From: Candidatus Cloacimonadota bacterium
GTDB taxonomy: Bacteria > Cloacimonadota > Cloacimonadia > Cloacimonadales > Cloacimonadaceae
NCBI GenBank assembly: GCA_017995405.1
Contig: JAGOIY010000004.1
Location: 1 to 35,662, forward strand
DNA length: 35,662 nucleotides
Direction of reading: 5' to 3'
The notes beneath the pieces are model-generated. The model ran no database searches and was not told where the DNA came from. It was given only the letters and a program-made list of their open reading frames with translations. Of this stretch, positions 4,199 to 30,274 are shown in pieces. Every line of letters begins with the position of its first letter. Position 1 is the first letter of the stretch. Position numbers and translations under genes: made by a program.

Positions 4199-4921
4199 CT
4201 ACCTCTCCTGCATCATATTGCGGGACTGTAGCTTGAGCTCAGCCAGATATTTGAAGACCACGATCAGGATCAGGAAGAACAGCAGGTCCCGGGTATCGAT
4301 CACGCCCTTGAGGAAGTTTTGCAGATGGTAGTCAAAGCTGATAAACTCCAGGGTGCCGGCCAGGCTGGCAGGCAGGAAAGCGGTGATGAACTGCATCAGA
4401 TAAAACACCGCGCTGATCGCCAGACCAAGGATGAAAGCGAGCACCTGATTGGTGGAAAGGCTGGAGGCGAAGACACCGATGCTGATGTAGGCTGCTCCAG
4501 CCAGCAACAATCCCAGGTAGCCAGCGAAGATGGCACCGAGATCGACTCCGGAGCCGAAATGGAGGATCAAGCCCAGGTAAACCAGCGTGAAGACCAGCAC
4601 CGTGGCCAGCAGCATAACAGCTGCCATGATCTTGCCCCACACGATCTGGCCAAGCTTCAGCGGCAGGGTGGAAAGCAGCTCAAAGGTGCCGGAAGCCTGC
4701 TCTTTGGAGATGGCACTCATCGTGATGGCGGGCGCGTAGATCACAAAGATGAGGTGAATGATGCCAAACACGCCTCTCAATTCAGCCAGTCCCACCTTCA
4801 GAGCGGTGTTGGCAAAGTAGAAACCGGTGGCGGTGAGAAAGAGAATGAAGATGATGTAGGTGGTCACGGAGCGGAACGCAAGTGAGTATTCTTTCTTGGC
4901 GATGGTGATGGCGGGGTTCAT
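4199..4921 (-). CDS. gldF: GldF-like ABC-2 type permease
   Basis: A 240-residue integral membrane permease with six hydrophobic segments, at about residues 18-38, 50-75, 98-125, 132-155, 160-188 and 216-232. The N-terminus (AITIAKKEYSLAFRSVTTYIIF) and the cytoplasmic loop AISKEQASGTFELLSTLPL are typical of GldF / ABC-2 permeases that pair with a separate ATPase. Its start codon overlaps the stop of the ATPase gene (ATGA), and the GldG-like gene follows within two bases, so the three are one translationally coupled complex. The substrate is unknown. The length is normal for the family. Confidence 0.88.
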   Translation of the reverse strand: MNPAITIAKKEYSLAFRSVTTYIIFILFLTATGFYFANTALKVGLAELRGVFGIIHLIFVIYAPAITMSAISKEQASGTFELLSTLPLKLGQIVWGKIMAAVMLLATVLVFTLVYLGLILHFGSGVDLGAIFAGYLGLLLAGAAYISIGVFASSLSTNQVLAFILGLAISAVFYLMQFITAFLPASLAGTLEFISFDYHLQNFLKGVIDTRDLLFFLILIVVFKYLAELKLQSRNMMQER

Positions 4922-6000
4922 TTGGCCTCCTCTTCTTCATGGCTGGGAAGTGTATCTTCCTCAACGGAAGAGGATTGCTGCCCCTCGGTAGCATCGGATT
5001 CCGATCCGTCGTCTGTCATTGCATCGTTTTCCCATGATGACGGTTGCGGCTCTTCTGGTGTGTCCGGCAGCTCTTCCTGCATTGTGAGGTTGTGGAAGAT
5101 CTCTTCCAGGCTCTGCTTTTCAGCGTAGATGCTGAGGATTTGCCAGCCTTTTTCCACCACGAAGGCGGAAAGCTCTCTGCGGAGGTCGTTTTCGCCGGGG
5201 ATCAGCATTTTTATCCTGGCGACATTGCCGTGTTGGGTCTGCTCCTGTAACTGGGTATCGGGATAGAGCAAAGACCAATCGCTCAGATCAGGCTGATCGG
5301 CTTCCACTTCCAGCACGAGGTGTTGGGCGTTGCCCATGTAGGCACCCAGGTTTTCCTTGAGCTCATCCACCACGATGCGGCCTTTGTTGATGATGATCAC
5401 GCGGTCGCAGAGGGCCTGCACTTCCTGCATGATGTGGCTGGAAAGCAAGACGGTCTTGGCTTGTCCCAATTCGCGGATCAGCTCTCTGATCTCCATGATC
5501 TGGTTGGGATCGAGTCCACTGGTGGGCTCATCGAGGATCAGGACTTCGGGATCATGAAGGATGGCTTGCGCCAGGCCCACCCGCTGTTTGTAACCCTTGG
5601 AGAGAGTCCCGATGCGCTGATTGAGCACTCCTTCCAGACCGCAGTTGTCGATCACATAGTCCAGCCTCTCAAGATAGCGGCCTTTGGGCATCTTTCTGAG
5701 GGCGGCGATGTAGGCCAGAAACTCCACCACGCTCATTTCAGGGTAGAGGGGATTATGCTCCGGAAGGTATCCGATCCGGGCGCTGGTGGAAATGGGATCG
5801 GCAAAAATACTCTTTCCGTCCAACTCGATGGATCCCTCCTCGGGCTGCAGAAAGCCCACCATCATTCTCATAGTGGTGGTTTTTCCGGCTCCGTTGGGAC
5901 CCAAAAAGCCGACAATTTCGCCCGTGTTGACGGCGAAACTGATCTTGTCCACGGCCCGGATGTGTCCAAAGCCGCGGCTCAGCGATTTTATCTCAATCAT
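4918..6000 (-). CDS. gldA: GldA-like ABC transporter ATP-binding protein with acidic tail
   Basis: A 360-residue cytoplasmic ATPase that should power the GldF-like permease. Visible motifs are Walker A GPNGAGKTT (34-42), Q-loop/helical region to about 125, ABC signature LSKGYKQR (133-140), Walker B VLILDEP (153-159), D-loop SGLDPNQ and switch histidine H189 in LLSSHIMQEV. After a regulatory domain reaching about residue 308, the protein ends in a strongly acidic, Ser/Glu/Asp-rich, low-complexity tail of about 50 residues that the family does not normally have. The start at 6000 has GGAG five bases upstream. The gene is separated from the upstream membrane-fusion gene by 148 bases containing a hairpin array, unlike the overlapping junctions downstream. 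Confidence 0.9.
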   Translation of the reverse strand: MIEIKSLSRGFGHIRAVDKISFAVNTGEIVGFLGPNGAGKTTTMRMMVGFLQPEEGSIELDGKSIFADPISTSARIGYLPEHNPLYPEMSVVEFLAYIAALRKMPKGRYLERLDYVIDNCGLEGVLNQRIGTLSKGYKQRVGLAQAILHDPEVLILDEPTSGLDPNQIMEIRELIRELGQAKTVLLSSHIMQEVQALCDRVIIINKGRIVVDELKENLGAYMGNAQHLVLEVEADQPDLSDWSLLYPDTQLQEQTQHGNVARIKMLIPGENDLRRELSAFVVEKGWQILSIYAEKQSLEEIFHNLTMQEELPDTPEEPQPSSWENDAMTDDGSESDATEGQQSSSVEEDTLPSHEEEEAK

Positions 6001-6011
6001 CTATACTCCAT

Positions 6012-6050
6012 GAAAGTTCTAGGGTTTTAGGGTTTTTGGGTTTTAAGGTT
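6012..6050. repeat. GGGTTTT-type G-rich tract
   Basis: The plus strand carries a telomere-like run with three GGG tracts and two flanking GG tracts, each separated by TTTT, TTTTT or similar spacers (AGGGTTTTAGGG and onwards). It lies just ahead of the ATPase start on the minus strand, so the transcript carries the C-rich complement. A G-quadruplex on the template strand is possible but unproven. No coding potential was seen. Confidence 0.5.
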
Positions 6051-6058
6051 TATGGAAT

Positions 6059-6152
6059 CTCACATGCGCAGCATCTCACCTACCGCAGGTATCTCACCTA
6101 CCGCAGGTATCTCACAGCGCAGCTCTCACAGCTTCAGCTCTCACCTGCTCAC
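6059..6152. repeat. Tandem array of mini-palindromes separated by CTCAC
   Basis: Seven copies of CTCAC (starting at 6059, 6075, 6093, 6111, 6125, 6140 and 6148) enclose short inserts. The first five inserts are each self-complementary: ATGC-GCA-GCAT (6064-6074), TACC-GCA-GGTA (6081-6091), the same again (6099-6109), AGC-GCA-GCT (6116-6124) and AGCT-TC-AGCT (6130-6139). The first four share the core C-GCA-G, while the outer stem bases change together. The last CTCAC contains the stop codon of the membrane-fusion gene (TGA on the minus strand). The array would be transcribed between the membrane-fusion and ATPase genes. It is not a CRISPR: the units are 14-18 bases and the spacers are palindromes. 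Confidence 0.8.
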
Positions 6153-7315
6153 ATCATTCCCGGAAAGCTGGGTGGCTGGTCCGGTTCGGAAAGCGAGATT
6201 TGGTCCCCTTCTTTGAGACCTGAGATCACTTCCACCATCTGCATGTCGTTGGCCCCCAGTTTGACGGGTGTTGCAACCGGTTTTGGCGCCGCGGTGCTTT
6301 TGGATATGGCTTGCTTGTCCGCAGATTTTTTTGCTCCTGCCGGCATCAGATAGACGATATCTTCGTTGTTGTCGTTGCTGAAGACGGCCCGGATCGGGAT
6401 AGTGAGTACGTCCTTCCTGGATTCTCCCAGGATGGAAACGGCTGCCGTCATGCCCGGTTTGGCCTTTTCTCCGCTGGCATTGATACTGATTTCGACGGGG
6501 AAGACCTTGGCATTGTTTTCGGTGGCGGCCATGGGAGCGATTTTAACGATGCTGCCCTCAAAGGCCTCATATGGGAGGGCATCCAGTTTGATGTCGGCAC
6601 TTTGGCCCAGACTGAATTTGGCGATGTCCACCTCGTTGATATTGCTTTTCACGATCATGTGTTTGAGGTCGGCAATCTTCATCACCACAGTGCCTTCGCC
6701 ATAGCTGTTCATGCTGGACTGCACCATTTCGCCCTCGTTGATCTTGCGCTCGATCACCACTCCGGAAGCGGTGGCAAACACGTGAGTTACTTTGCCCGGG
6801 ACGTCCAGTTCGCGGATCATTTCATATTGGGAAGTGGCCTGTGTAAACTCGATCTGAGCATTTCTGAGCTCATCGCTGGCGGCATCGAAGCTTTCCTGGG
6901 AGATATACTTCTTGTCCAGGAGAACCTGTTTGTCCGCCAGGTCTTTTTTGGCGTTGGCGAGGCGGAGCTCCGACCTCTGCAACTGAGCTTTGGTGCTGAA
7001 GAGGGTGTTGGCCTGATTGTAGTCCGGCTCGATATCAGCAATCTTCTGTCCCTGTTTCACATAGTCGTTTTCAGAGGCGTAAAACTTCACGATCTTGCCG
7101 CTCACCTTGCTTTTGATCGAAACCACCGTCTGAGGCTGGACCTCACCGGTTATCTCGATGCGGGATTCGATGTCGCCTCTGGCAACAGTGTGAGTCTGAG
7201 TCGGTTGGGACAGTGTCATTTTTTTCATGGCTGCCTTGCCGCACTGGCCTATGGCAAACACGATCACGACGAGGCCTATCGCGATTCCTGTCACGATCTT
7301 CCATTTCTTACGCAT
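6149..7315 (-). CDS. HlyD/MacA-type periplasmic adaptor (membrane-fusion protein)
   Basis: A 388-residue adaptor that should bridge an inner-membrane transporter and an outer-membrane channel. It has one N-terminal membrane anchor (KIVTGIAIGLVVIVFAIGQ), a lipoyl/biotinyl-like half-motif (GEVQPQTVVSIKSKVSGKIVKFYASENDYVKQGQKIADIEP), and an alpha-hairpin/coiled coil at about residues 105-155 (QLQRSELRLANAKKDLADKQ). The second lipoyl half and beta-barrel follow, around GEMVQ and ADIKLDALPYEAFEGSIVKI. The start at 7315 (MRKKWK) has GAGG upstream; the frame extends further to 7384, but without a signal. A K/A-rich insert (GAKKSADKQAISKSTAA) lies near residue 335. It is the first gene of the minus-strand operon ahead of the GldA/F/G-like genes, an unusual partner for that class. 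Confidence 0.88.
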   Translation of the reverse strand: MRKKWKIVTGIAIGLVVIVFAIGQCGKAAMKKMTLSQPTQTHTVARGDIESRIEITGEVQPQTVVSIKSKVSGKIVKFYASENDYVKQGQKIADIEPDYNQANTLFSTKAQLQRSELRLANAKKDLADKQVLLDKKYISQESFDAASDELRNAQIEFTQATSQYEMIRELDVPGKVTHVFATASGVVIERKINEGEMVQSSMNSYGEGTVVMKIADLKHMIVKSNINEVDIAKFSLGQSADIKLDALPYEAFEGSIVKIAPMAATENNAKVFPVEISINASGEKAKPGMTAAVSILGESRKDVLTIPIRAVFSNDNNEDIVYLMPAGAKKSADKQAISKSTAAPKPVATPVKLGANDMQMVEVISGLKEGDQISLSEPDQPPSFPGMM

Positions 7316-7383
7316 TGATCCTCGCTTGTGCCAAATATTTCCAGCTTTTGCGAACATCGCGCTGGAAGGGCGTGATGCTGTCA

Positions 7384-7428
7384 ATAAAAAAAGACCCCGG
7401 GTGATAAGCCTGCACTGGAAGGTCTGTT
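7384..7428 (-). terminator. Weak candidate terminator after the lipocalin gene
   Basis: Read on the minus strand, AGACC and GGTCT can pair across a long loop and are followed directly by a run of seven T (complement of 7386-7392). The stem is only about five base pairs, so this is a weak call. Its position, between the lipocalin stop (7447) and the adaptor start (7315), is right for a terminator. Confidence 0.35.
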
Positions 7429-29995: not shown

Positions 29996-30274
29996 GCACG
30001 GTCAGAGAGCTGCACGACGATTTCCCGCAGATTTCGCGGGTTTTGGCGCGGATTTCGCAGATGGTACAGAGAGCGGTGCTACAACAAGCACTGGTACCTC
30101 TCAACCCTCTCAACTCATGTAGCGTCGGATTCCAATCCGGGGCGTCTCTAAACCTTCTCAACCATATCAATATCTGCGTAATCAGCGCCAAAATCTGCGC
30201 AATCTGCGGGAAATACATCGCCGATTTGGAAATCGATGTTACGGGGTCCGGCGCTTCGGAGAATAAATGAGCAC
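29992..30274. mobile_element. Inverted-repeat element inserted between thiF and thiS
   Basis: ATGAGCAC occurs at 29992-29999 and again at 30267-30274, exactly where thiS begins. Between them lie 267 bases of non-family sequence. Its core has two 43-base arms, 30020-30062 and 30172-30214, that are inverted copies of each other with 38 of 43 positions matching. Both contain CCCGCAGATT and TTTTGGCGC blocks. Between the arms are further small dyads (GTGCT-ACAACA-AGCAC; CGGATT-CC-AATCCG), and beyond the right arm GATTT-GG-AAATC. The simplest reading is a short MITE-like or modular repeat insertion that duplicated eight bases of the former ATGA thiF/thiS overlap. No transposase or clear terminal inverted repeat is visible. 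A 92-codon frame crosses the whole element by chance. Confidence 0.6.

Follow-up and report, generated by a model that had tools for sequence, protein, structure and literature searches.

What is the array of small palindromes, set between copies of the pentamer CTCAC, that lies between two operon genes at positions 6059 to 6152 of contig JAGOIY010000004.1 from a Candidatus Cloacimonadota bacterium? The stretch analyzed here, referred to as the window, comprises the first 35,662 nucleotides of this contig, and an initial annotation of its letters had singled out the array. We show here that the array is a member of a dispersed repeat family whose units stay palindromic through paired changes inside one insert. 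We lean toward reading it as the gene-less terminal array of a repeat element linked to genes of PF05635 (23S-rRNA-IVP, an Avd-like four-helix bundle) and constrained as DNA hairpins.

The array and its repeat family

The palindromic CTCAC array is confirmed. Its seven pentamers start at 6059, 6075, 6093, 6111, 6125, 6140, and 6148, with start-to-start spacings of 16, 18, 18, 14, 15, and 8 nt; the spacing of 14 to 18 first given for it holds for five intervals and not for the last. Likewise, the five long inserts (ATGCGCAGCAT, CTACCGCAGGTAT twice, AGCGCAGCT, and AGCTTCAGCT) are self-complementary, with the stems that had been listed, and the sixth and last insert, CTG alone, is not palindromic. 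The identical C-GCA-G center claimed for four inserts was found in four of the five long ones. Insert AGCTTCAGCT, which can also be read as the tetraloop AGC-TTCA-GCT, is the final hairpin of an array at C164 and recurs at C137, both in the same genome. Adding up the stem lengths of the four distinct inserts gives a total that 1 of 200,000 within-insert shuffles reached, and the rest of the window contains at most two CTCAC or GTGAG pentamers per 94-nt stretch. As the initial annotation stated, the array lies between an HlyD-type adaptor gene and an ABC ATPase gene, both on the minus strand, and the adaptor's TGA stop codon falls in the last CTCAC (Table 1). No PF05635 gene is present inside or beside the window array.

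Unit counts come from pattern searches of 125 Cloacimonadota genomes and from retrieved stretches of sequence; the source genome (G000) is an assembly that is 83% complete, and repeats cause breaks in metagenome assemblies. It has 50 matches to CTCAC-N-CTCAC-N-CTCAC and none to the reversed pattern, and 54 spaced hairpin units versus 0 in the reversed control. Four species of one other genus in the same family have 114 (G024), 26 (G042, HGW-Cloacimonetes-3), 29 (G043, Go_SlDig_bin_329), and 53 (G044) hairpin units, and one species of another genus (G010) is sparse, with 4. Nearly all of the other 119 genomes have 0 to 2 units, and the five congeners of the source genome are at or near background. 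Across 84,980 genomes, an exact unit pattern was found in Cloacimonadota and as two single matches elsewhere, about the chance expectation. CTCAC arrays are also present in phage contigs of IMG/VR, one of which (L178) has terminase, portal, capsid, and protease genes. The idea of an undescribed repeat family is thus borne out, and the initial caveat that the pattern might be chance does not hold, as the array is not the only one and shuffling does not recreate the pairing. We found no earlier description in the open-access literature of such hairpin or tandem arrays, of Cloacimonetes repeats, or of PF05635 genes with tandem repeats.

A parallel family of GNA-hairpin arrays with a TGAC spacer occurs in three genomes of a distant family (G116, G119, and G120), which contain 30, 29, and 12 PF05635 genes, respectively. 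Its 21 distinct inserts have a mean stem of 2.76, compared with 2.10 ± 0.16. Arrays of mini-hairpins thus have more than one origin or a deep divergence. In G087, scattered copies of a nearly identical repeat, each with two GCGAAGC hairpins (CCGTGAAATCCTGCGAAGCAGGAACAGCGAAGCTGTATTTAACGGGG; L416 to L419), apparently form a separate family, and in G012, CTAACTG-type intergenic repeats are intermixed with GCGNAGC hairpins (L423 to L425).

The unit as a DNA mini-hairpin

From 89 arrays, 498 units were taken, 242 of which are distinct. The unit is about 12 to 21 nt long, with a CTCAC or CTCCC spacer and variable stems of 2 to 5 bp; the mean best stem is 2.72, versus 1.88 ± 0.04 in shuffled inserts. 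Triloops read on the CTCAC strand are GNA in 112 cases, the complement TNC in 12, and the reversed ANG in 2. The stem of 160 distinct GNA inserts is closed by C-G in 98 and by T-A in 33, with no G-C or A-T closure at all. Stem position 2 is Watson-Crick paired in 120 of the 160 (GC 50, CG 33, AT 22, and TA 15), against 43.8 expected and a maximum of 63 in 2,000 permutations; positions 3 and 4 are paired in 83 (40 expected) and 45 (18 expected). Where neighboring units differ, position 2 pairs within the insert in 188 of 238 cases and across CTCAC in 11 of 119, which rules out alternative hairpins with CTCAC in the loop. These counts uphold the initial reading of covarying stems as a sign of selection, or of a generator, for structure.

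The constraint acts on one strand and suits DNA hairpins; stems of 2 bp together with a GNA loop on one strand fit DNA rather than RNA. Ultrastable DNA hairpins are defined by a loop of GNA or GNNA that tops a stem of two or more G-C pairs, and d(GCGAAGC) melts at 76 to 78°C (PMC4686876, PMC10527192). The initial annotation had pointed to C-GNA-G mini-hairpins of this kind, and the loop and closure counts agree with their relevance: the units have a one-strand GNA loop, C-G closure, and a stem of at least 2 pairs, and exact GCGAAGC units occur among the family. Loop (GNA, also GNNA), C-G closure, and a 2- to 3-bp G-C stem are common to these units and d(GCGNAGC) mini-hairpins; the latter are known as isolated oligonucleotides or aptamer parts, whereas the units here form evolving genomic arrays. 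With hundreds of units obeying the cGNAg rule of oligonucleotides, the family offers a natural evolving record of the thermodynamics of DNA, not RNA, hairpins.

Table 1. Features of the array and its neighborhood in the window
Feature	Position	Strand	Remark
Polar CTCAC/mini-hairpin array	6059..6152	+	GNA loops on + strand
Mini-hairpin 1, ATGC-GCA-GCAT	6064..6074	+	
Mini-hairpin 2, C-TACC-GCA-GGTA-T	6080..6092	+	
Mini-hairpin 3, copy of mini-hairpin 2	6098..6110	+	
Mini-hairpin 4, AGC-GCA-GCT	6116..6124	+	
Hairpin 5, AGC-TTCA-GCT	6130..6139	+	Tetraloop
Adaptor-gene stop codon TGA, within last GTGAG	6149..6151	-	Congeners have a different stop here
HlyD-family adaptor (PF16576)	6149..7384	-	3′ end flush with array
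ABC transporter ATPase (PF00005)	4918..6000	-	Next operon gene
ABC-2 permease (PF12679)	4199..4921	-	
Second short tandem repeat, GGGTTTTA type	6016..6055	none	5′ side of array

Lineage-specific insertions at gene boundaries

The window array is a lineage-specific insertion at the adaptor stop codon. The adaptor gene of five congeners has the same end point and is followed, with no array between, by the ATPase gene after about 10 to 40 bp; in the source genome this gap holds the array and the GGGTTTTA-type repeat. A role in serving the adaptor-ATPase operon, one of the uses first envisaged, is not supported, because all five congeners lack an array at the same site. At 15 further gene ends compared with orthologs, the protein in most cases ends at the same or nearly the same position; mostly, GTGAG follows or supplies the stop codon and the orthologs continue without an array. 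At L036, an array stands immediately before a conserved TTGACA promoter. The insertions are lineage-specific and their positions non-orthologous; no transposition event was observed. The GGGTTTTA tandem repeat is telomere-like and absent from the congeners, and a similar repeat is located 5′ of the array at L033.

Read 5′ to 3′ along the CTCAC strand, the arrays have a polarity and directly adjoin gene boundaries. Loci were chosen because they bear arrays, so neighbor counts describe arrays and not genomes, and genes were simple open reading frame calls, so single distances are approximate. On the 3′ side, 35 of 48 facing stop codons fall between -40 and +15 nt of the array end; on the 5′ side, 3 of 29 do. 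A TTGACA box is found no more than 40 nt from the 3′ end of 12 arrays and from the 5′ end of none. The array is followed directly by T or C in 92% of cases and by G in none. On phage contigs, arrays adjoin a ribosome-binding site or start codon. The 5′ side has mostly other repeats or an inverted array, and sequence common to several loci is frequent 5′ of arrays and rare 3′. A replication-strand bias was dropped, as no association with GC skew was found on these short contigs, where power is low. A paralogous pair of small genes (~146 and ~150 amino acids) recurs beside head-to-head CTCAC arrays in G042 (L090 and L094) and G044 (L114 and L116).

PF05635 genes and a proposed origin of the arrays

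The same repeat family surrounds one PF05635 clade in four related species. In the sister genus, each of the four array-rich species has one PF05635 gene amid CTCAC arrays; the four proteins are 61 to 74% identical and form one clade (support, 100/96), and the gene positions differ between genomes. Outward-pointing inverted arrays bracket the gene in G024 (L051), G042 (L089), and G043 (L098). The arrays flanking the L051 gene pair as RNA into a stem of about 100 bp (z = -16), which resembles the pairing of the ends of intervening sequences (IVSs) in 23S rRNA. At the site in G024 orthologous to that of the G042 element, another PF05635-like gene lies between inverted arrays of the heptamer TTGAGAA, both flush with stop codons; three array-less relatives have a short gap alone.

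Inverted flanking repeats extend beyond this clade. Most of the 47 PF05635 genes read across the phylum, a sample biased to high-scoring members, have tandem repeats on both sides, and many different repeats are involved. At least three inverted 8-mers are common to both 200-nt flanks in 35 of 46 PF05635 genes, compared with 9.2% of 5,000 random windows; direct-orientation sharing is much weaker (14 of 46). PF05635 proteins that are at least 55% identical and lie in unrelated contexts have a repeat in common in 18 of 27 pairs, versus 23 to 32% in more distant pairs. Inverted flanking repeats were also found around plasmid copies of PF05635 genes in the cyanobacteria Nostoc, Anabaena, Stanieria, and Geminocystis and in Riemerella; in copies from Calothrix, Aulosira, and Nostoc C052 this layout is weak or absent.

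We propose that the CTCAC family, whose repeat unit combines an invariant pentamer with a cGNAg-type DNA mini-hairpin, may be the end array of a mobile element linked to PF05635, and that the window array would be one gene-less copy. The process that spreads the units would act on the CTCAC strand in its folded, single-stranded state, with the PF05635 protein or a partner acting on that strand; tandem copy number could later shift by ordinary slippage or unequal exchange. Copies would persist where they do no damage, just past a stop codon or ahead of a promoter. We infer that PF05635 drives array spread; direct recognition of the hairpins by the PF05635 protein is the step we are least sure of.

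Several observations weigh against this proposal. PF05635 occurs in 102 of 125 genomes, most without CTCAC arrays, so its presence alone is not sufficient and fails as a predictor of the arrays. Most arrays have no gene inside; therefore PF05635 genes might have landed in pre-existing arrays. At L117 in G044, the arrays by the PF05635 gene form a complex cluster without a clean inverted pair. No PF05635 gene flanked by CTCAC was found in the source genome; of its two PF05635 genes, one was read, and in this 83% complete assembly several arrays are located at the ends of contigs. The ViennaRNA DNA parameters give no GNA bonus and do not separate the strands by energy, so the stability of the unit hairpin rests on published measurements. 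Finally, we know of no catalytic domain in PF05635. The source-genome PF05635 gene that was read (L428, C126) ends with TATAGTTTTA / TAAAACTATA-like inverted sequence, not CTCAC units.

The serious rival, among three, is a protein-free selfish or neutral minisatellite, in which slippage would be aided by hairpins, template switching during replication would perfect quasi-palindromes, and PF05635 genes would land in or near arrays. It gains from higher-order repeats of alternating units within arrays, which resemble tandem duplication, from the lack of a common candidate enzyme (Y1, Y2, or reverse transcriptase), and from congeners that manage without the array. Template switching, however, would not prefer GNA loops, C-G closure, or one strand; the lack of a GC-skew link (at low power) also counts against it, and boundary polarity, phage occurrence, and the single PF05635 clade in four genomes are left unexplained. 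We rate this explanation as unlikely, though well ahead of the two that follow.

The polarity of the arrays, which point into the adjoining unit at stop codons and promoters, would suit a boundary element whose CTCAC-sense RNA, C-rich with evenly spaced YC steps, is a Rho loading site stopping read-through or antisense transcription into the neighboring unit, and the 9- to 13-nt inserts between pentamers resemble Rho sites as these are described. We nevertheless find it improbable: arrays are missing in congeners and at orthologous sites, the RNA of the window operon carries the G-rich strand, CTCAC sense in phage contig L178 runs along the operon and adjoins a ribosome-binding site, and covarying 2-bp stems with GNA loops are not accounted for. 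The last idea, that hairpins in the 3′ untranslated region make the mRNA more stable or adjust translation of the gene that follows, is close to one option of the initial annotation and agrees with the many arrays that have a stop codon on one side and the following gene or an intrinsic terminator on the other. As a cause of the conserved shape it is very improbable, because many stems are 2 bp, the constrained strand with its GNA loops is opposite to the operon RNA, and arrays are also found ahead of promoters, outside the transcript of the downstream gene; array sites, moreover, are not conserved between species.

Among known systems close to the arrays are repetitive extragenic palindromic (REP) sequences and bacterial interspersed mosaic elements with REP-associated tyrosine transposases (RAYTs; IS200/IS605-like Y1); the arrays have in common with them short extragenic strand-tagged palindromes recognized, in REPs, as single-stranded hairpins (PMC3733652). 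REPs have a GTAG or CGTC tag and, in GTAG families, stems of 6 to 13 bp, and are mostly singles or dimers; the CTCAC family, with a CTCAC or CTCCC pentamer, stems of 2 to 5 bp, and long tandem arrays, is not a REP element. PF01797, the RAYT/Y1 transposase family, had no matches in the source genome or in the array-rich G043, both incomplete, and is present in 99 of 125 genomes, and was rejected as a candidate. Reverse transcriptase (PF00078) shows no pattern with the arrays, and Y2 transposase (PF04986) was found in 0 of 18 genomes in a search without any control match, so that its absence is not proven.

Cyanobacterial short tandemly repeated repetitive heptamers are likewise intergenic short tandem repeats, and GGGAGTA-like heptamers flank a Nostoc PF05635 gene in inverted order; those units are invariant at 7 nt, whereas CTCAC units of about 12 to 21 nt hold a covarying mini-hairpin of variable stem, and the identity was ruled out. 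The 23S rRNA IVS encoding the IVS protein (IVP; PF05635) is also a gene bracketed by inverted sequence with a long RNA stem; here the site is between protein genes, the stem is built of short tandem repeats, and most arrays are gene-less. Avd of diversity-generating retroelements is homologous to PF05635 by published comparison (PMC10053308). The bAvd profile gave a weak match, below the cut-off, and in contrast to Avd retroelements, no reverse transcriptase, template repeat, or variable repeat was found beside the arrays read. Clustered regularly interspaced short palindromic repeat (CRISPR) arrays were ruled out, as the inserts are palindromes recurring within and between loci, not unrelated unique spacers.

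A wider, tentative generalization, which we regard as possible and hold with less conviction than the proposal for the window array, is that PF05635 genes with inverted short-tandem-repeat arrays make up a widespread, undescribed class of minimal mobile elements, in which every protein lineage has a repeat of its own; the CTCAC unit would be recognized as a folded DNA mini-hairpin, and gene-less arrays would be non-autonomous copies. If so, many bacterial short-tandem-repeat families, including the cyanobacterial heptamers, would be traces of PF05635 elements. The array family provides a testable candidate both for the role of the very common IVP/four-helix-bundle proteins outside rRNA and for the origin of bacterial intergenic short tandem repeats.

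Three cyanobacterial plasmids (L469, L473, and L475) contain PF05635 genes with end repeats among CRISPR genes, in the cas6-cas4 gap in two and between cas10 and a Cmr3-family gene in the third. These genes are probably hitchhikers rather than CRISPR parts, which may explain IVP genes appearing as apparent CRISPR-gene partners. Elsewhere in the window, a small open reading frame region at 30097 to 30208 contains two short tandem repeats, CCTCTCAAC in two copies and a 21-bp unit in two copies.
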